Source: Thermoanaerobacter pseudethanolicus ATCC 33223 (lineage in GTDB: Bacteria > Bacillota > Thermoanaerobacteria > Thermoanaerobacterales > Thermoanaerobacteraceae). Taken from it: 64,000 bases of DNA. The notes under the pieces are model-generated. The model saw nothing but the letters and a program-made list of their open reading frames with translations. It had not been told where the DNA came from and did not search any database. Position numbers and translations under genes: made by a program. Positions 26,352-54,120 of the stretch are shown piece by piece (positions within the stretch are counted from its first letter, which is position 1; every line of letters begins with the position of its first letter). The stretch covers positions 1,871,001-1,935,000 of the forward strand of contig NC_010321.1 in assembly GCF_000019085.1 (NCBI RefSeq), written 5' to 3'.

Positions 26352-26448
26352 TCTCTTTTTATAGATTTCTTTTTCCCCACCCCAACATTTATTATAGAAC
26401 CTTTATTTTGTAATAATTATCACTATTGGTTTTAATCCTTCTTTAATA

Positions 26449-26457
26449 TGGTATAAT
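26449..26457 (+). promoter_or_regulatory. Extended -10 promoter of the first rubrerythrin-VIT1 gene
   Basis: TGGTATAAT lies about 63 bp before the start codon. The same sequence and about 70 bp of leader recur before the second copy at 52962, showing that promoter and gene were duplicated together. Confidence 0.6.
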
Positions 26458-26519
26458 AAATATAAATTTTATTTCTGGTATTTTCACAAAAATTATTCGC
26501 AGAAAGGAAGGTATGACAA

Positions 26520-27607
26520 ATGAATCCTATAGACCAAGCTATCAATTTTTACAAAGAAGAAGTTGAAGCTGCCGAGCTTTATAATACCTTGCAAAAATAG
26601 AAAAAAATCCACAAACTAAAAGTAATTTTGACGCGCTTGCAAAAATGGAGCATGTTCATGCAAAATTTTGGCATCAATTTTTAAAAACCAGGAATATAGA
26701 AATTCAAGAAGGAAAATTCCACAAATTTAAGCTTTTTACTTATAAAATATTGAGAACTTTACTTGGAAGCAAATTATTTGTCACAATACTTGAGATGAAT
26801 GAGGTAATAAGTACCGAATCCTATTACCGCTATTTTCACGAAGCCTCTCTTACAGAAAAAGAAAAATTAATTCTCTCAAAAATCATAGAAGATGAGCTTG
26901 AACATGAAAAAATGTTTAGCAGACAAAAAGATAAATTCAACATAGAAAACATAAGAGATTTCATACTTGGAATGAACGATGGCCTTGTGGAAATCTTAGG
27001 AACTGTAACAGGACTTTCAGCTATTTATCCAAAAAGCCCCATCACCGTTGGAACCGCAGGTTTAGTAGTAGGAGTAGCTGGTGCTCTTTCTATGGCAATA
27101 GGTGCATACACCTCTGTACGGTCTCAAAGACAAGTAAATGAAGGAATAAAAAGGAAAATGGAGCTTTTATTTAAAGTCTCAAAAGACAGGGCAAAAGAAG
27201 AATTTTTAAATAAACTGTCAGAATCTGGTATACCCGAAGATGTCGGAACAGAAATCGTAGAAAAACTCAGTAACAATGAAGATGCCATGACAAACCTCTT
27301 AACTGAAGAAATTTCTGAAAACGAAATAAAATCTGCTCTATATACTGGTATCGCATACCTTGTAGGACTTGTATTCCCCGTTTTGCCTTACTTTATAATC
27401 ACTTCATCCTCTTTAGTAGCTCTTGCATTTTCAGTAATTTTTGCAGCAATAGCACTTTCTATAGTAGGAATTATAGTATCTGTCGCTTCAGAAAGTCTGT
27501 CTATAAAAGGAAAGGTTTTAGAAATGGTAGCAACAGGCCTTGGCGCAGCAGCGCTATCCTACCTCTTTGGAACATTAGTGCAAAAAGTATTTGGAATAAG
27601 TGCATAA
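26520..27607 (+). pseudogene. Rubrerythrin-VIT1/CCC1 fusion (MbfA-like), copy A, frameshifted
   Basis: The gene starts with MNPIDQAINFYKEEVEAAEL at ATG 26520 but hits a TAG at 26598; the rest is open from about 26600 to 27607. Alignment with the intact copy at 53032 shows one missing base near 26582 (CTTTATAATACC against CTTTACACATACC), and the total is exactly one base shorter. The product would be a ferritin-like iron-binding domain fused to a VIT1/CCC1 membrane transporter, thought to move Fe2+ or Mn2+. An internal ATG at 26645 could give a 320-residue product lacking the first metal-binding Glu. It may be a true pseudogene or a sequencing error. Confidence 0.85.
26859..27345 (+). repeat. 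487-bp near-identical tract shared with 53372-53858
   Basis: Within the two rubrerythrin-VIT1 genes this tract differs at one position only, whereas the flanking parts of the same genes differ at many positions. The partner tract is in direct orientation 26,513 bp away. Confidence 0.9.
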
Positions 27608-47139: not shown

Positions 47140-47760
47140 TTATCTTCCTATTGCGTAGAAGTAAGAATCCATAGAACCTATGTATACTGTACCATTTGTT
47201 TCGCCAAATTCTTTATCTAATTGACGCTTTATTTTTTCATAATCTGGTTCAGGTAATTTTTTATCAATCCATAATTCATACTGTGTCAAGCCTTGATATG
47301 TATGATTTATTATCTTCCAATGCCCGTCTTGTTTTTCCAATTCAAAGATATTATCACCTGGACATATAAACATTGGGTAAGCCTTAGTACGATCTATTTC
47401 TAATTCCACTACTACTTTTGCTCTGTTACCATTTATATCTATATTTTTGTAATTAAATTTCAAAGGAAATCGCCTTCTTTCAACGTATCCATACCCTTTT
47501 TCAAAAGCATATTTTCTTCTAAATGTTAATTCTTTAAGTGCTATTACTTTATTTTGATTCTGTATTTTTGTCATATCCAGATATGGTGTTGTGTCAATAT
47601 ATTCCATTTTTAAGTACGCTTTATACTGCACATTGTAAAACTTTTCAATTGTATACTTAACATGGTCTTCTTCATTTTTAAATGTATAACCACATGCCGA
47701 TAATAATCCGGATAAAGTAAATAAAACAAGCATGATTTTTAAAGGTTGTTTAAACATCAT
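47140..47760 (-). CDS. Lipoprotein, unknown
   Basis: A 206-residue protein with a signal peptide and lipobox LLSAC (Cys23), followed by an alpha-plus-beta domain of NTF2-like pattern (EKFYNVQYKAYLKMEYIDTT, AKVVVELEIDRTKAYPMF, WKIINHTYQGLTQYELW). No family is firmly recognised; DUF4829- or SnoaL-like is possible. It lies just outside the left end of the transposon at 47834. Confidence 0.65.
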   Translation of the reverse strand: MMFKQPLKIMLVLFTLSGLLSACGYTFKNEEDHVKYTIEKFYNVQYKAYLKMEYIDTTPYLDMTKIQNQNKVIALKELTFRRKYAFEKGYGYVERRRFPLKFNYKNIDINGNRAKVVVELEIDRTKAYPMFICPGDNIFELEKQDGHWKIINHTYQGLTQYELWIDKKLPEPDYEKIKRQLDKEFGETNGTVYIGSMDSYFYAIGR

Positions 47761-48018
47761 TTATTGACCCTTTCCATATATTTTTTAATATCTCAAAGAC
47801 TCTTTCTTCCATTATACCCTTTTAAATGTTAAATGTCAATTCTCAAATTAAATCTCCAAAGATTTTCAAATTATAATGGCATTTTTTAAGTGCATAAAAG
47901 TATTTTTTCTCAAATTATCACAGCCTGATTAAAAATTTTTTTCACTTTTTAAGAGCATAACCGCCAAAATATGTTAATATCTGTTATTGGCAATTTGGGT
48001 TAATTGAAGTATAATCGA

Positions 48019-49925
48019 GTAGGAGCTGAATAATTATTTTATTCAGCGTCCTCTCACACCACCGTACGTACCGTTCGGTATACGGCGGTTCATTAGGAAT
48101 TGTGTACAATTAGATATCTTTGGGATAAACTCTTATAACCTATGCTTTCAAAGTATTTATTTGTAAGAGTCTTATTTAGGATTGGGCTATTGGATATTCT
48201 CCAGTAGCCTTTCCTTGTATTGGCGTATTCCCAGGCTTTTTGTTCTTCTACTCCTAGTTTTACTAAGTTATCATGCTTCGTTTTTATCTTCTTCCATTGT
48301 TTCCATATACATGCCCTTAGTCTTCGCCTTATCCATTCGTCAAGGGTTTTCATTATGCTTTTCGCGTCTGCTAATCCAAAATAGTTGACCCATCCTGTTG
48401 TTATTTGATTTAGTCTTTTTATTCTGTTTTCCATGCTTATTCCCTTGTTCCGATTGGTTATTTCTCTTACTTTTTCCTTAAACCTTTTGATGGATTTTTC
48501 ATGGATTCTTATTCTTACTTCGTTTTCTTTTGTGTAGAATGAAAATCCAAGAAATTTTCTTCTCCATGGTCTATCTACAGCACTTTTTGCTTCGTTGACT
48601 TTTAGTTTTAATTTGCTTTCTATGAATTTCTTTATGCTCTTCATTACTCTGTTTCCTGCAGACCTGCTTTTTACATATATGTTGCAGTCATCTGCATATC
48701 GGCAGAATTTATGCCCTCGTTTCTCAAGTTCTTTGTCTAGTTCGTCCAACATTATGTTTGCTAATAGTGGACTTAATGGCCCTCCTTGGGGTGTCCCTTC
48801 TTCTGTTGATACTTTGATTCCGTTTATCATTACTCCTGATTCTAGGTATCTTCGTATTAACTTTAGTACTCTTTTGTCTCCTATCCGCTTTTCTAGTTTG
48901 GACATTATTATGTCGTGGTTTACTCTGTCAAAGAACTTTTCTAAGTCCATATCTACAACCCATGTGTATCCTTCATTTATGTATGCTTCTGCGGCTTTTA
49001 TTGCGTCTTTTGCACTGCGTCCTGGTCTGAATCCATAACTGCTATCAGAAAATGTATGGTTGTAGACTTTATTTAGTATTTGGGCTATTGCTTGTTGTAT
49101 TAGTCTGTCTAGTACTGTAGGTATTCCTAGTAGTCTTTTCCCTCCATCAGGTTTTGGTATTTCTACTCTTCGCACTGGTTGTGGTTTGTATTTCCCCTCC
49201 AGCAGTTGTTGTTTTATGGTTGCCCAGTTTTCTTTGAGATACGGTAGAAGTTCATCTACTTCCATCCCATCGACTCCATGGCTTCCTTTATTTGCAACAA
49301 CGCGCTTGTATGCTGCTTCCATGTTCCCTCGTTCTACTATCATTTCAAGCATCTTGCTGGTATATCTTTGTACCTCGTTTCTTCCATCTTCCGACGCCGA
49401 TGATATACTATGCACTTCCGTTGTCTTTTGAAATTCCATTTCTCTATTCAACGGATAGCCTCTTTGTTGAGTTGTCTGCAGTCTCTGCATATCTTTCGAG
49501 TCCATAAGATTTCCAAAACCTCCTAACGTTCGGTCCTTCCTTATCTATTCATGTCTAGATAAGTACTATGACCTCTGCTGACTTCTCAAGGTTCAGCCAT
49601 ACATCACTGCATGGGTTGTCACTTCAGATTTTACTCCCATGACTTATCCTTGAGACCTCCCCGGGTAAGAACGATAACTTTCATCTCATATATCTGCCAG
49701 ATTTACTGTATGGGATTCGGGTAGTGTTGGACTTCGTTTTGTTACGCAAACTCATCCATCCCAATTCAGCCTCTTATCTGGTTCTTATTCATCAGACCGA
49801 GATTTTGCCTTAAGCTTCCTTCAGATTCCACCTCACGATGGACACCCTTGCTCTTGGCTAGTGGTTCCCACTACCAAGCCCACAGCGGACTTTCACCGCC
49901 TAGTTATCGCCCATGCCGGGCGCAC
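48019..49925 (-). mobile_element. Group IIC intron with maturase
   Basis: Read on the minus strand, the 5' end GTGCGCCCGGCATGGGCG (from 49925) and about 420 nt of structured RNA precede the maturase gene. Domain V (about 48091-48056, GAACCGCCGTATACCGAACG onward) and domain VI (CTGAATAAAATAATTATTCAG, ending near 48024) follow it. The 3' end is estimated at 48019 (CCTAC). The intron starts two bases after the T run of a terminator hairpin, the target preference of group IIC introns. The maturase lacks an endonuclease domain, also as in IIC. Confidence 0.9.
48093..49505 (-). CDS. ltrA: Group II intron reverse transcriptase/maturase
   Basis: A 470-residue intron-encoded protein. Reverse-transcriptase motifs include GVDGMEVDELL, RPVRRVEIPKPDGGKRLLGI-type RT2, YGFRPGRSAKDAI, and the catalytic CRYADDCNIYV (about residue 270). 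Domain X (maturase) follows with GWVNYFGLADAKSIMKTLDE and the C-terminus has KGYWRISNSPILNKTLTN. There is no HNH endonuclease domain, as is usual for class C. Start 49505 follows AGGAGG. It binds and helps splice its host intron and copies it into new sites. Confidence 0.95.
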   Translation of the reverse strand: MDSKDMQRLQTTQQRGYPLNREMEFQKTTEVHSISSASEDGRNEVQRYTSKMLEMIVERGNMEAAYKRVVANKGSHGVDGMEVDELLPYLKENWATIKQQLLEGKYKPQPVRRVEIPKPDGGKRLLGIPTVLDRLIQQAIAQILNKVYNHTFSDSSYGFRPGRSAKDAIKAAEAYINEGYTWVVDMDLEKFFDRVNHDIIMSKLEKRIGDKRVLKLIRRYLESGVMINGIKVSTEEGTPQGGPLSPLLANIMLDELDKELEKRGHKFCRYADDCNIYVKSRSAGNRVMKSIKKFIESKLKLKVNEAKSAVDRPWRRKFLGFSFYTKENEVRIRIHEKSIKRFKEKVREITNRNKGISMENRIKRLNQITTGWVNYFGLADAKSIMKTLDEWIRRRLRACIWKQWKKIKTKHDNLVKLGVEEQKAWEYANTRKGYWRISNSPILNKTLTNKYFESIGYKSLSQRYLIVHNS

Positions 49926-49927
49926 AT

Positions 49928-49960
49928 AAAAAATGAGAGTAGCGAAAGCTACTACTCTCA
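49928..49960 (-). terminator. Terminator of the transposon genes and intron target
   Basis: On the minus strand TGAGAGTAG (49960-49952) and CTACTCTCA (49942-49934) form a 9-bp stem, then six T (49933-49928), then AT, then the intron. The stem begins inside the ATPase stop codon. Confidence 0.88.
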
Positions 49961-50758
49961 TAAACTGATTTCATTTTGTGCCTGGTATATTGCTTCTTCA
50001 TCTATTTCTCTTAGCCTTTTAGAATACGCATAGAGAAGAGAAGCCGTTACCAGGTTATTTATTATCCTTGGCAGCCCTTTTGTTAGAGAATATATTGCTT
50101 CATATGCCGATGGTGTAAATATATCATCCATCACTCCAGCTATTTTCATTCTTGTTTTTATATAATCTTGAATTTCTTCTTTTTTTAGCCCTTGCATTAC
50201 ATACTTTATAGAAATTCTTTGCCTTAGTGCACTGTTTACATTCAAGGCTAGTTTGTTTCTTATGTGTGGTTGTCCTGAAAGTATCAATATATACGGGTTT
50301 TGAGAATCCATATTAAAGTTAAATATTATTCTCAAATCTTCAAGAACATCATTAGAAACCAGTTGTATTTCATCTAATATTATGACAGGAGTTATCTTCT
50401 GGCTGTAATAAAGTTCTGTTATCGCTCTTTGTATCTGGTGAAAGAGCGTTACTTTTTTGTATGAGGGGGTTTCGCCTAAAATCATAGCCAATGCTTGATA
50501 GAATTCTCTCACTGTGAGTGTAGAAAGGGCAAAGTAACATGGTTTAAATGTAGAACGATTGAGGCTTTCAGCATATTTTCTTAATGCGGTAGATTTGCCT
50601 GAACCCGCCTCCCCAACGATAAGTCCTATACCCCTTGTTTCTTGTAAATATTTTAGCCTGGCATTTAATTCAGCAATGTCTTCACTTATATAAAGGTCAT
50701 TTACACTTATCTCTTTAGAAAATGGATTAAATTTCATTCCAAAATATTGGGTAAACAT
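49958..50758 (-). CDS. ExeA/TnsC/TniB-like AAA+ ATPase of the transposon
   Basis: A 266-residue AAA+ ATPase, starting at MFTQYFGMKFNPFSKE after AGAGGTG; a start 11 codons earlier overlaps the transposase gene. Walker A GEAGSGKST (49-57), Walker B VIILDEIQ (about 122-129), sensor ILSGQP and an arginine-finger region SALRQRISIKY are present. Such ATPases (TnsC, MuB, TniB) choose or immunise target DNA and activate the DDE transposase. The gene follows the transposase gene by 16 bp, the usual pairing. The ExeA-type C-terminal AAA lid is included. Confidence 0.9.
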   Translation of the reverse strand: MFTQYFGMKFNPFSKEISVNDLYISEDIAELNARLKYLQETRGIGLIVGEAGSGKSTALRKYAESLNRSTFKPCYFALSTLTVREFYQALAMILGETPSYKKVTLFHQIQRAITELYYSQKITPVIILDEIQLVSNDVLEDLRIIFNFNMDSQNPYILILSGQPHIRNKLALNVNSALRQRISIKYVMQGLKKEEIQDYIKTRMKIAGVMDDIFTPSAYEAIYSLTKGLPRIINNLVTASLLYAYSKRLREIDEEAIYQAQNEISL

Positions 50759-50774
50759 TGTAAACACCTCTTTT

Positions 50775-52100
50775 TTAATCAATGATATCATTAAAGGATA
50801 TTACTGGGGGATTAGGTTTTGCAGCAAAATCCACAGTATCTTCATTTTCGCTTACAACCTTTCTGTCTTCGATATATTCTACAGGAATTTTAGCATTCTC
50901 ATGAAAATTTACCTTATACGCTTCCCCTACTTTTTTGCCTTCATGAAAAAGTAAAAGGGGTGTATTATCCTTAAGCCACTGCGGGTCATATCTGACTTCT
51001 AAGCGCATACCTTTAAACTTTTCTTCTGTTTCGTAAAGTATATTTTCCACTTTAAGTGTGGCATCTTTGTTTACTTTACGATTTACTCTTATGAGAAAAC
51101 ATTCATTCAACATATCTATGTCACCACACATATTTACCCTTGATATTTGAGACATGAAAAAATCTAAAGGACTCATGCCAATACTGCTATGTTCTTTTCG
51201 GTTGTAATCCTCCTCCAGCCATTTAAAAAACATCATATTGAGCTCATCTATACTCTTTATGGATGTAGGATCTATTGTGCTTAAAAATCTCATTCTCACC
51301 GTATGAAAGAATCTTTCTATTTTCCCTTTTGAATGAGGTGAAAAGGGCTCAGCATGAATAAGAGATGTACCTAATGATGCACATATATATTCAAATTGAG
51401 TGCTTCTATATATCTTTCCATTGTCAGTGTAGAGCATTTTGGGTATTCCCCTTCTTAGCACTGCTTCTTTAAATGAGTCTCTTAAAGCTAAAAAATTCTG
51501 GGTATAGTAAAAGCGAGCATAGGTACACAGCCTGGAAGCATCATCTATATATGCAATAAGGTACGTTTGCCTTTTTGTTTTACCTTCTTTAATATATGGC
51601 CCATACATGACATCAGTCTGCCACAGTTCATTGATGAATTCATGGGAAAATCTCTTTGTTTTACCCTCTTTTTCTTTATCTAAAGATTTTACAGGAATGT
51701 TTTTCAAAAACCTATAGAATGTCGAAAGGGATACTTTATCCGGTGAGATTATTCCTTCTCCTATCAATGTCTCATAAAGAAGTTTGTTTGGCATTTCAGG
51801 ATGTTCAAGCTTTTTTTGCTTTATTTTCTCTGAAAGTTCAAAGTTTATCTTTCTGTATTTGCCTCTGTCGCTTCGATAACCCGGCTTTAACGCTTCTATA
51901 CCGCCTCTTAAATACTGATATAGCCACCCTCTAAGTGTCTTGGGAGTATATCTTCTCATTCCAAGATAAGGTATCTCAATAGGTTTATCGGAAAGAGCAT
52001 CAAAATATTCTTTCTGATTTTTTACCTGTCCGTTTAGCACCGGACTTATCAGTGAAAATCTCTTTAATGCTATAGCTTCTCTCGCTTTTTCATCAAGCAT
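50775..52100 (-). CDS. Mu/TnsB-type DDE transposase
   Basis: A 441-residue transposase of the retroviral-integrase superfamily. N-terminal helix-turn-helix regions (about 15-135; RYTPKTLRGWLYQYLRGGIE and SLSTFYRFLKNI) precede the rve catalytic core with Asp in LWQTDVMYG (about 164), Asp in MLYTDNGK (about 226) and Glu in KGKIERFFHTVR (about 259). A Mu-C/TnsB-like beta-barrel domain follows (LRVN-type RVNRKVNKDATLKVENILYE). Its pairing with the adjacent ATPase is as in Tn5053, Tn552 and Tn7. No TnsA-like nuclease or TniQ gene lies nearby, so replicative (cointegrate) movement is likely. Confidence 0.9.
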   Translation of the reverse strand: MLDEKAREAIALKRFSLISPVLNGQVKNQKEYFDALSDKPIEIPYLGMRRYTPKTLRGWLYQYLRGGIEALKPGYRSDRGKYRKINFELSEKIKQKKLEHPEMPNKLLYETLIGEGIISPDKVSLSTFYRFLKNIPVKSLDKEKEGKTKRFSHEFINELWQTDVMYGPYIKEGKTKRQTYLIAYIDDASRLCTYARFYYTQNFLALRDSFKEAVLRRGIPKMLYTDNGKIYRSTQFEYICASLGTSLIHAEPFSPHSKGKIERFFHTVRMRFLSTIDPTSIKSIDELNMMFFKWLEEDYNRKEHSSIGMSPLDFFMSQISRVNMCGDIDMLNECFLIRVNRKVNKDATLKVENILYETEEKFKGMRLEVRYDPQWLKDNTPLLLFHEGKKVGEAYKVNFHENAKIPVEYIEDRKVVSENEDTVDFAAKPNPPVISFNDIID

Positions 52101-52236
52101 TTATATGTTCCCCCTTCACTTTTTTGATTTCTTAATCGTAATTTTAGCTCATACCTGGGGGACATTAAAGGAAAAAGTTATGTTGCTAAGAAAAAATCAA
52201 AATTTTTATTTAAATCTTTCGGATTTAATGCTAAAA

Positions 52237-52818
52237 TTATGTGAGAGAGGCCAGAAATGATTTTTGGCAATGAGCATAAAACCGTTGGGAGAAGAGTGGT
52301 ACAATGCTTATTATGTCCAAAATCTCTCTGGCCCTCTCTCTTTGTGAGTCAGTCTCAGATAACTTTATGTAAGGGTCTATTTGCCTTAATCCGTATATGA
52401 TAAAACTTAAATTATTCATTATCCTTTTGGTGTAAAAATATATATGCTGTCTTGAAAATAGTATGGTGGGAAAGTTTCTTTTTAAGTCACTTATGAAAGA
52501 ACTGAGAGTTTTTTCTCTTGTAAGTGTCTCTTTTAAAGACTTTACAATCATATTGAAAGAATACTGAAAATGGGGAAGACAGAAATCAGGAAGGTAGGAA
52601 AGAGTTCTTTTGCACACAGGACATATATATCTTCTTATGGCTATTTTTATACAGTTGGATCCGTCTAAATAGTAACGGTAATAAAACCCGTGCTTTTTTA
52701 GTTTTACTCTACACTTGCAATCGGGATAAGGACATCTATCTGGCGGGGCAGGGAAATTGTAATCTTTGCCCTTTCGTAAATACTCTTCAATGTTATCAAC
52801 ATGGAAAACTATTTGCAT
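52237..52818 (-). CDS. Zinc-ribbon protein of the transposon (DUF6431-like)
   Basis: A 193-residue protein with two Cys pairs, RCPYPDCKCRVK (about 29-40) and YICPVCKRTL (about 69-78), enclosing KKHGFYYRYYLDG, then a helical Arg/Lys-rich region to the C-terminus. This is like the DUF6431 domain often found beside such transposases. A start at 52818 (MQIVFHVDN) is chosen because GGAGAGG lies six bases upstream; the frame opens at a TTG inside that site. It is the first gene of the transposon and lies 136 bp before the transposase gene. It could bind transposon ends or targets; its function is unknown. Confidence 0.75.
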   Translation of the reverse strand: MQIVFHVDNIEEYLRKGKDYNFPAPPDRCPYPDCKCRVKLKKHGFYYRYYLDGSNCIKIAIRRYICPVCKRTLSYLPDFCLPHFQYSFNMIVKSLKETLTREKTLSSFISDLKRNFPTILFSRQHIYFYTKRIMNNLSFIIYGLRQIDPYIKLSETDSQRERAREILDIISIVPLFSQRFYAHCQKSFLASLT

Positions 52819-52835
52819 AAGTAACCTCTCCAATT

Positions 52836-52893
52836 AAAATTAATGCTAAAGGAATCTGAAAAAAATTTATCAAATTCCTTTAGCATTAATTTT
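52836..52893. promoter_or_regulatory. 20-bp perfect inverted repeat before the zinc-ribbon gene
   Basis: AAAATTAATGCTAAAGGAAT (52836-52855) and its exact inverse (52874-52893) enclose an 18-nt loop directly upstream of the GGAGAGG ribosome site. It could insulate the transposon genes from outside transcription, or be a protein site at the right end. Confidence 0.6.
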
Positions 52894-52961
52894 ATCACAA
52901 GATTATTTAATCTGAAAAATTTTTTCGATTTTAGGCTAAATTAATTTGAGAAATGACAATA

Positions 52962-52970
52962 TGGTATAAT
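52962..52970 (+). promoter_or_regulatory. Extended -10 promoter of the second rubrerythrin-VIT1 gene
   Basis: TGGTATAAT, identical to that of copy A, begins four bases after the transposon end, so any -35 contribution now comes from transposon DNA. Confidence 0.6.
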
Positions 52971-53031
52971 AAATATGAATTTTATTTCTGGTATTTTCGC
53001 AAAAATTATTCTCTGAAAGGATGGTTTACAA

Positions 53032-54120
53032 ATGAATCCTATAGACCAAGCTATTAGTTTTTACAAAGAAGAAGTTGAAGCTGCTGACCTTTACACATAC
53101 CTTGCGAAAATAGAAAAAAATCCACAAACTAAAAGTAATTTTGAAGCACTTGCAAAAATGGAGCATGCTCATGCAAAATTTTGGCATCAATTTTTAAAAG
53201 ACAGAAATATAGAAATTCTAGAAGAAAAATTTCACAAATTTAAGCTTTTTACTTATAAAATATTGAGAACCTTAGTTGGAAGCAAATTATTCGTCACAAT
53301 ACTTGAGATGAATGAAATAACAAGTACCGAATCCTATTACCGCTATTTTAACGAAGCTTCTCTTACAGAAGAAGAAAAATTAATTCTCTCAAAAATCATA
53401 GAAGATGAGCTTGAACATGAAAAAATGTTTAGCAGACAAAAAGATAAATTCAACATAGAAAACATAAGAGATTTCATACTTGGAATGAACGATGGCCTTG
53501 TGGAAATCTTAGGAACTGTAACAGGACTTTCAGCTATTTATCCAAAAAGCCCCATCACCGTTGGAACCGCAGGTTTAGTAGTAGGAGTAGCTGGTGCTCT
53601 TTCTATGGCAATAGGTGCATACACCTCTGTACGGTCTCAAAGACAAGTAAATGAAGGAATAAAAAGGAAAATGGAGCTTTTATTTAAAGTCTCAAAAGAC
53701 AGGGCAAAAGAAGAATTTTTAAATAAACTGTCGGAATCTGGTATACCCGAAGATGTCGGAACAGAAATCGTAGAAAAACTCAGTAACAATGAAGATGCCA
53801 TGACAAACCTCTTAACTGAAGAAATTTCTGAAAACGAAATAAAATCTGCTCTATATACCGGCATTGCATACCTTGTAGGACTCCTATTCCCTGTTTTACC
53901 TTATTTTATAATCACCTCATCGTCTTTAGTAGCACTTTTATTTTCAGTGATTTTTGCAGCAATAGCACTTTCTATAGTAGGAGTTGTAGTATCTGTCGCT
54001 TCAGAAAGTCTGTCTGTCAAAGGAAAGGTCTTAGAAATGGTAGTAACAGGTCTTGGCGCAGCAGCTTTATCATATCTTTTCGGCACTTTGGTACAATATG
54101 TATTTGGCATACAAGCATAA
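53032..54120 (+). CDS. Rubrerythrin-VIT1/CCC1 fusion transporter (MbfA-like), copy B
   Basis: A 362-residue protein. The N-terminal ferritin-like domain (about 1-135) has di-iron ligands in FYKEEVEAADLY, KMEHAHAKFW and EDELEHEKMF. The C-terminal VIT1/CCC1 membrane domain (about 145-360, five helices) has GMNDGLVEILGTVTGLSAIY and VVGVAGALSMAIGAYTS. In related proteins this architecture exports iron (MbfA) or stores Fe/Mn away. It is intact, unlike copy A at 26520. The strong ribosome site and leader are shared with copy A. A terminator follows. Confidence 0.9.
   Translation: MNPIDQAISFYKEEVEAADLYTYLAKIEKNPQTKSNFEALAKMEHAHAKFWHQFLKDRNIEILEEKFHKFKLFTYKILRTLVGSKLFVTILEMNEITSTESYYRYFNEASLTEEEKLILSKIIEDELEHEKMFSRQKDKFNIENIRDFILGMNDGLVEILGTVTGLSAIYPKSPITVGTAGLVVGVAGALSMAIGAYTSVRSQRQVNEGIKRKMELLFKVSKDRAKEEFLNKLSESGIPEDVGTEIVEKLSNNEDAMTNLLTEEISENEIKSALYTGIAYLVGLLFPVLPYFIITSSSLVALLFSVIFAAIALSIVGVVVSVASESLSVKGKVLEMVVTGLGAAALSYLFGTLVQYVFGIQA
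53372..53858 (+). repeat. 487-bp near-identical tract shared with 26859-27345
   Basis: Only one base differs over 487, while the flanking gene sequence is clearly more diverged. This fits recent gene conversion between the two copies. Confidence 0.9.

Follow-up and report, generated by a model that had tools for sequence, protein, structure and literature searches.

DUF6431 zinc-ribbon genes as usual partners of a TnsB-related transposase and an AAA+ ATPase in a widespread, apparently undescribed transposon family

The 64,000-bp stretch of Thermoanaerobacter DNA analysed here (the window; positions 1871001-1935000 on a single 2,362,816-bp contig) holds at 47834-52958 a copy of a transposon whose relatives form a widespread three-gene family, a real variant of the DDE-plus-AAA+ kind that is apparently undescribed. 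We consider it likely that the basic 3.2-kb element transposes autonomously and belongs to a distinct kind with three proteins, a DUF6431 zinc ribbon, a TnsB-related DDE transposase and an AAA+ ATPase, with the zinc ribbon serving as a dedicated partner of the other two. Sequence comparison shows common ends, spread to multiple copies and target duplications that are mostly 6 bp long; the three genes usually occur together and co-diverge.

Genes, ends and target duplications of the element

A first-pass annotation, made from the nucleotide letters, had described a Tn7-like element with a zinc-ribbon, a transposase and an ATPase gene between 18-bp ends, and no TnsA, TniQ, Cas or resolvase gene. 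Family scans and copy comparisons support this gene content, and the features are as follows.

47834..52958, minus strand (that of its genes): whole element in its present form, 5125 bp, with identical ends in all 8 genomic copies
47834..47851, unstranded: terminal inverted repeat, ATPase side (repeat comparison and copy alignment)
52941..52958, unstranded: terminal inverted repeat, zinc-ribbon side (repeat comparison, copy alignment and homologous element-free DNA)
47842..47917, unstranded: three repeated sites on the ATPase side, CTCAAATTA / TTCAAATTA / CTCAAATTA, starting at 47842, 47865 and 47909 (site search)
49958..50791, minus strand: AAA+ ATPase, 277-amino-acid (aa) frame (AAA_22, E 2e-26)
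50775..52100, minus strand: DDE transposase, 441 aa (rve and Mu-transpos_C domains)
52237..52833, minus strand: DUF6431 zinc-ribbon protein with C-terminal helices, 198 aa from TTG (PF20020)
52835..52894, unstranded: inverted repeat with 29-bp arms, 93% complementary, just upstream of the zinc-ribbon gene

Judged by its profile score, the zinc-ribbon protein is a clear member of DUF6431 (PF20020; E 2.5e-10, 40.5 bits, above the gathering cut-off of 26.6), and an ATG at 52818 that follows GGAGAGG and would yield 193 aa is by eye its likelier start. Residues D163, D226 and E262 of the transposase were invariant in 9 sequences. Open reading frames (ORFs) of at least 80 aa were considered; neither TnsA, TniQ, Cas nor resolvase genes were found by family scans among the four gene-like ORFs of the element, the other in-element ORFs being antisense frames of 81-147 aa. 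The fourth gene-like frame belongs to a feature that the first-pass annotation overlooked, a reverse-transcriptase-encoding group II intron at ~48014-49926.

The positions assigned to the outer ends, 47834 and 52958, also held up. The terminal repeats TGTCAATTCTCAAATTAA (47834-47851) and TTAATTTGAGAAATGACA (52941-52958) are 94% complementary over 18 bp, and the element starts and stops on the same bases in 8/8 copies within the source genome. The seven other copies are 99-100% identical to it over the 3.0 kb compared and all lack the intron, which accounts for ~1.9 kb of the window copy; the basic element without it measures 3213-3214 bp. The right boundary is exact because homologous DNA runs on uninterrupted and element-free beyond the position of 52958, both in a 96% identical paralog at window 26446 and in genome G007. 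This paralog forms part of a 942-bp duplication inside the window (26446-27387 versus 52959-53900, 96% identity), which holds most of a 362-aa gene adjoining the element.

Internal repeated sites, another claim of that annotation, are real but few. The ATPase end carries CTCAAATTA at positions 9 and 76 from the tip together with a one-mismatch site at position 32, while the zinc-ribbon end has one clear site at position 9 and a weak one at position 40. The three sites on the ATPase side are candidate transposase-binding sites. The ATPase-side tip also reads TTGACA outward and, together with a flanking TATAAT at a spacing of 17 bp, makes a 12/12 promoter match on the minus strand (window 47811-47839) that stands ahead of the gene at 47140-47760.

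The 5-bp target duplications that had been predicted were rejected on 25 two-ended Thermoanaerobacter copies, 19 of which are flanked by duplications of 6-8 bp (6 bp in 13, 7 bp in 5 and 8 bp in 1) and 6 by none. Outside these 25 are the one-sided copies L100, L101, L103, L109, L115 and L128 and the fragment L102; the pairs L107/L114, L112/L113 and L097/L098 have sequence in common. In a second lineage, B (39-40% transposase identity, ends TGTTA...TAACA), 7/10 copies displayed a 6-bp duplication. Further afield, 8 of 14 fetched stretches were used for ends, and 9 copies from four other genomes gave 6 bp in 5, 5 bp in 1 and 3 unassignable cases when ends were allowed to shift by up to 25 bases. 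No shared insertion motif was seen by eye among the duplications. The window copy is one of the 6 two-ended copies without a duplication, and its left flank does not adjoin the homologs of its right flank in the paralog or in G007. On both counts, the flanks of the window copy were probably rearranged after insertion.

The zinc-ribbon gene and its association with the transposase

We hand-picked 40 DUF6431 loci across the phylum, one per genome, from 50 genomes with a match (at L202 the match was taken from the initial DUF6431 search), and found the transposase gene directly downstream on the same strand in 28/40. In the reverse test, the zinc-ribbon gene lay upstream in 26 of the 29 best distinct transposase loci, the remaining 3 being cut short (L034, L288 and L281). 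Of 16 lower-ranked loci, 7 carried the gene, 6 were cut short or fragmentary, and 3 lacked it despite upstream DNA; the broken copy L133 had none within 0.9 kb. Universal presence of the zinc ribbon, which held on the 29 best loci, was dropped after these 3 exceptions. In total, the zinc-ribbon gene precedes the transposase gene at 33/46 genomic loci; 10 others are truncated, broken or located at the end of a contig, and the 3 true exceptions are all copies in genome G120 with a different first gene; the co-conservation anticipated by the first-pass annotation is thus general rather than complete. No copy with only transposase and ATPase genes and an intact upstream region was seen.

Outside chromosomes, close viral-contig loci carried the zinc-ribbon gene in 15/15 cases and more distant ones in 0/23, 7 of the latter having less than 500 bp of upstream DNA. 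Among 8 plasmids picked from 186 records, 7 carried it (from Geobacillus, Sporosarcina, Planococcus, Pandoraea, Acidithiobacillus, Rhodococcus and Streptomyces) and a distant one did not, which makes 0/24 for the more distant loci overall. A search of 50,697 phage records gave no match at E 1e-15, although relatives on viral contigs exist. The tree built from 63 transposases placed 14 distant sequences without a zinc-ribbon gene on one side of a single branch with support of 100/99. Protein distances across the 48 loci that possess all three genes were correlated for transposase and zinc ribbon (r 0.90), transposase and ATPase (0.93) and ATPase and zinc ribbon (0.82), and 0/2000 permutations reached values as high, indicating that the three proteins, as measured by these distances, co-diverge. 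On these counts, DUF6431 is the usual, not universal, partner in the family.

Several findings weigh against the reading of a distinct three-protein kind with the zinc ribbon as a dedicated partner. At G120 loci L319-L321 it is replaced by a 174-aa first gene, 93% identical among the copies, whose product lacks the zinc-ribbon cysteine pattern and bears at most marginal likeness to DUF6431 (3.6 bits, hhalign probability 1.2%). The transposase of these exceptions falls inside the clade (FastTree; surrounded by groups of 30 and 48 rows, with local support of 0.82 and 0.94, respectively). Because these copies have intact upstream DNA and a different first gene, the zinc ribbon is replaceable; three other G120 copies, L306-L308, do carry it. 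Twelve of the 40 DUF6431 loci have no adjacent transposase, although among them L185 and L209 stop at a contig edge, L214 lies 606 bp from one, and L183, L189 and L222 proved on inspection to be lone or fused frames. Because the transposase profile derives from elements with a zinc ribbon, such elements are favored in the sample, and the tree drew a long-branch warning from the tool. The ATPase profile matched target DNA activator B best among solved proteins (E 9e-10), but dynein and Cdc6 outranked TnsC (1e-3 to 5e-3). As for the zinc ribbon itself, two models (one for the window protein, one for a distant member) gave no Foldseek match with E <=0.001, and VIA-align placed an unrelated CARD domain first for the window protein (Z 4.7).

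At L183:928-4860 the DUF6431 domain starts a frame of 1311 aa that also encodes VWA, TSP3 and AHH nuclease domains and may contain what is left of a transposon fused in frame, and at L222 the lone gene adjoins a homolog, recognized by eye, of the gene at 47140-47760 to the left of the window element.

Residues C34, C39, C71 and C74 were invariant in 15 zinc-ribbon proteins. Predicted structures of the window protein and of the distant member (mean predicted local distance difference test scores of 82.7 and 75.2, respectively) both comprise N-terminal strands and C-terminal helices. Below the CARD row, VIA-align aligned the window protein with part of the ISCth4 transposase (Z 3.9, 47 residues, 2.6 A), and the distant member with the zinc ribbon of NrdR (Z 3.5, 45 residues, 2.2 A). 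On these comparisons, DNA binding by the zinc-ribbon protein is a plausible inference.

In the favored reading, the transposase would bind the asymmetric ends and join them to target DNA, and the ATPase would deliver or license the target. The zinc-ribbon protein may act as a dedicated DNA-binding partner, either in assembly of the transpososome or in linking ATPase, target and transposase, and would thereby hold the position that TniQ has in Tn7; in one lineage it is replaced by another first gene. Insertion displays no obvious sequence preference. Within this reading we tentatively place an assembly or target adaptor first among the possible roles; end binding is a weaker candidate, and regulation is slightly weaker again.

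We also considered whether the zinc-ribbon protein is a regulator alone, such as a repressor of its own operon, with no part in strand transfer or targeting. Its small size and first place in the operon would suit such a function, as would the inverted repeat directly upstream (52835-52894), a candidate leader hairpin or operator. Strong hairpins occupy the same place in L079, L087 and L089, and the gene is replaceable by a different one in G120. However, no hairpin is evident in L090, L223, L130, L193 or L305, and the protein is retained down to ~30% transposase identity, a range wider than expected for a mere regulator. We regard this alternative as unlikely, albeit worth keeping in mind.

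Insertion sites, the group II intron and composite elements

Surviving Thermoanaerobacter copies are mostly inside other mobile elements. We compared 18 distinct duplication-flanked copies (L114 being counted once with L107), 13 of which fall within mobile-element genes or at the start of one, distributed as follows.

Group II introns, 5 copies: L022, L095, L098, L105 and L107
ISLre2, 3 copies: L096, L106 and L112
One copy each: IS256 (L019), IS3 (L094), a TnpB-related gene (L099), a PrgI gene (L023) and the start of a small transposase-type ORF (L104)

L104, at the start of a 57-aa ORF, was scored as mobile; without it the count is 12/18. Four other copies interrupt ordinary genes (L018, L021, L093 and L108) and L111 is unclassified. 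At least one flank lies in a mobile element for 5 of the 6 copies without duplications, the window copy being the one for which this is not so.

As controls we used 11 ISLre2 and 7 IS256 copies from the same three genomes, excluding the truncated IS256 L152. Most are intergenic, and 3/18 (L145, L146 and L147), or 2/13 if only duplication-flanked copies are counted, lie in or at mobile elements; the 5/18 without a duplication are L143, L147, L149, L150 and L151, and L147 was scored as mobile from coordinates and L150 as not, with the left flank only used for both. The excess of the transposon in mobile DNA relative to these controls gave Fisher p values of 0.0004 to 0.018, depending on the scoring of borderline rows. 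Coding DNA was hit at 16/18 element sites compared to 3 (4 with L143) of 18 control sites (Fisher p 3e-5 to 5e-4). A single intron family holds 3/8, 2/7 and 3/11 of the copies, compared to 0.35 in all expected by length. Counting the duplicated site a single time (7 copies instead of 8), the probability of this excess is about 3e-8, or 0.005 if insertion is tolerated in only 15% of the genome; L020 was placed by its right flank alone and L024 with a gap between its flanks.

These distributions bear on two explanations. The first holds that the zinc-ribbon protein selects targets and directs the transposon into mobile elements, making the transposon a specialist in nesting in introns, insertion sequences and the DNA of integrative and conjugative elements. 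The excess over controls and the intron-family count speak for it, as does lineage B, where 3/7 duplication-flanked copies are in mobile-element genes or next to them and a further 2 occupy CRISPR-cas DNA. In contrast, insertion points are scattered with no common site, a distant copy interrupts a formamidase-like gene, the intron excess shrinks under limited tolerance as stated above, and the bias was spotted post hoc; we judge such a selector improbable. In G011, the two lineage B copies L118 and L120 involve an interrupted cas7/csh2 gene and, by eye, a CRISPR-array-like site.

The second explanation, which we marginally prefer, is that insertion is near-random and includes coding DNA, and that selection purges hits in host genes and leaves survivors in dispensable mobile-element genes. 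The control insertion sequences would then look different because both families prefer AT-rich intergenic DNA: the 25 element sites average 34% G+C, like the window, versus 26% at 15 of the 18 control sites. The preponderance of coding sites and the four interrupted ordinary genes are likewise consistent with near-random insertion. Against it stands the scarcity of copies in intergenic DNA, which is expected to tolerate insertion to a similar degree and makes up a larger share of such genomes. These sites do not discriminate between targeting and selection, and a random inserter filtered by selection is the simpler account.

The window copy is itself host to a mobile element.

48014..49926 (boundaries +/-1-2 bases), minus strand: group II intron (Rfam RF02001, RF01998 and RF00029)
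48093..49505, minus strand: intron-encoded reverse transcriptase/maturase, 470 aa (RVT_1 and GIIM; TIGR04416, 461 bits)
49933..49961, minus strand: hairpin resembling an intrinsic terminator, downstream of the three genes (11-bp stem, then a T run)

The intron lies immediately after the terminator-like hairpin, which is one of 4 such sites found in the stretch versus 3.4 expected by chance. All 12/12 other full-length introns of the same family in the genome also lie behind a terminator, as judged by eye. Insertion just after an intrinsic terminator is described as a habit of class C introns (PMC3522654), and the window intron shares this trait. The window copy gained the intron later, behind the operon terminator. 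In G009, the reverse transcriptase gene is missing from 14 short introns, which retain the first 560 or so bases and the last 98, as would be expected had intact introns mobilized them in trans.

Nesting also occurs the other way round. In T. wiegelii, L107 and L114 have in common a 5.1-kb unit, 99.84% identical, consisting of an intron with the transposon in its reverse transcriptase gene. The unit reaches to within a few bases of the intron ends and is preceded by two different terminator hairpins, so that the composite most likely moved as an intron. The transposon also moves with extra load, since in G008 the copies L097 and L098, which contain an IS110 passenger between the transposase and ATPase genes, are the same end to end at two targets. 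The T. wiegelii copies L112 and L113 have part of ISLre2 and the whole transposon in common while their outer flanks differ, a sign of recombination or joint movement.

Relation to known systems and implications

The solved protein nearest to the transposase profile is TnsB (E 6e-20 over positions 51-390), followed by the IS5376 transposase, which we take to be of the IS21 family. With Tn7-like elements the family shares a TnsB-related DDE transposase and an AAA+ ATPase, TGT/ACA ends, and internal sites that are unequal at the two ends. It differs in having a DUF6431 protein in place of any TniQ, TnsA or Cas gene, in its basic form without cargo genes, and in its mostly 6-bp duplications, whereas Tn7 duplicates 5 bp of target. 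The TnsB-type transposase agrees with the Tn7-like label of the first-pass annotation, but membership in Tn7 is not supported: TniQ/TnsD and TnsA are missing among the gene-like ORFs, and the 25 copies lack the 5-bp duplication. Tn5053/Tn402 and Tn552 combine a transposase and ATPase core with a resolvase, and Tn5053 has TniQ in addition; the core is alike, but neither resolvase nor TniQ occurs among the gene-like ORFs here, and L268, a plasmid relative that has a recombinase gene but lacks DUF6431, falls outside the clade. IS481 has TGT ends as well and supplies the nearest NCBIfam name for the transposase, but the score of 172.1 bits is below the cut-off of 224, and the present element has three genes including an ATPase. 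IS21 likewise pairs a DDE transposase (IstA) with an AAA+ helper (IstB), but the transposase reaches 59 bits against a cut-off of 160, and IS21 is not known to have a third gene. By these comparisons the family is not Tn7, Tn5053, Tn552, IS481 or IS21.

It is conceivable that this is a Tn7- or Tn5053-type element in which the zinc-ribbon protein is a TniQ too diverged to be recognized. We consider this very unlikely, given that no TniQ family match was obtained, that duplications are mostly 6 bp rather than the 5 bp of Tn7, and that the transposases separate in the tree from the distant ones sampled. In its favor, TniQ cores likewise have a zinc finger between helical domains, according to a survey of Tn7 elements (PMC10293859). 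The zinc-ribbon protein gave no TniQ family sequence match, and its two models gave no fold match of any kind with E <=0.001, which weighs against TniQ identity but leaves it a small probability.

The same survey lists TniQ/TnsD, TnsE, TnsF and Cas effectors as Tn7 target selectors (PMC10293859), and a search of its main text for the word "DUF" gave no match. DUF6431 is a Pfam entry without a function, here tied to a transposon family; within the open-licence PMC literature it appears in a single paper, listed in a table next to a DDE transposase. The megatransposon of T. kivui is an IS1182-type element (PMC12056078). No paper on this transposon family was present among the matches listed in searches of the open-licence literature for DUF6431, related wording, intron nesting and Thermoanaerobacter.

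DDE-plus-AAA+ elements differ mainly in the extra protein that chooses the target. A widespread, co-diverging third protein that has been exchanged in at least one lineage is thus a testable new case and gives DUF6431 a context, and annotators gain one unit in place of three unrelated names. It is a long shot that DUF6431 constitutes a novel class of target selector, comparable to TniQ, TnsE and Cas effectors, whose role would be to load the AAA+ ATPase onto mobile DNA; were it true, the transposon would prey on other mobile elements as well as ride them, as the composite found twice in T. wiegelii suggests, and G120 would have swapped one selector for another in its different first gene. Copies nested in introns and insertion sequences provide a natural record of whether a transposon ends up in other mobile DNA by being steered there or by being sheltered there, and of a transposon being taken along by a group II intron.

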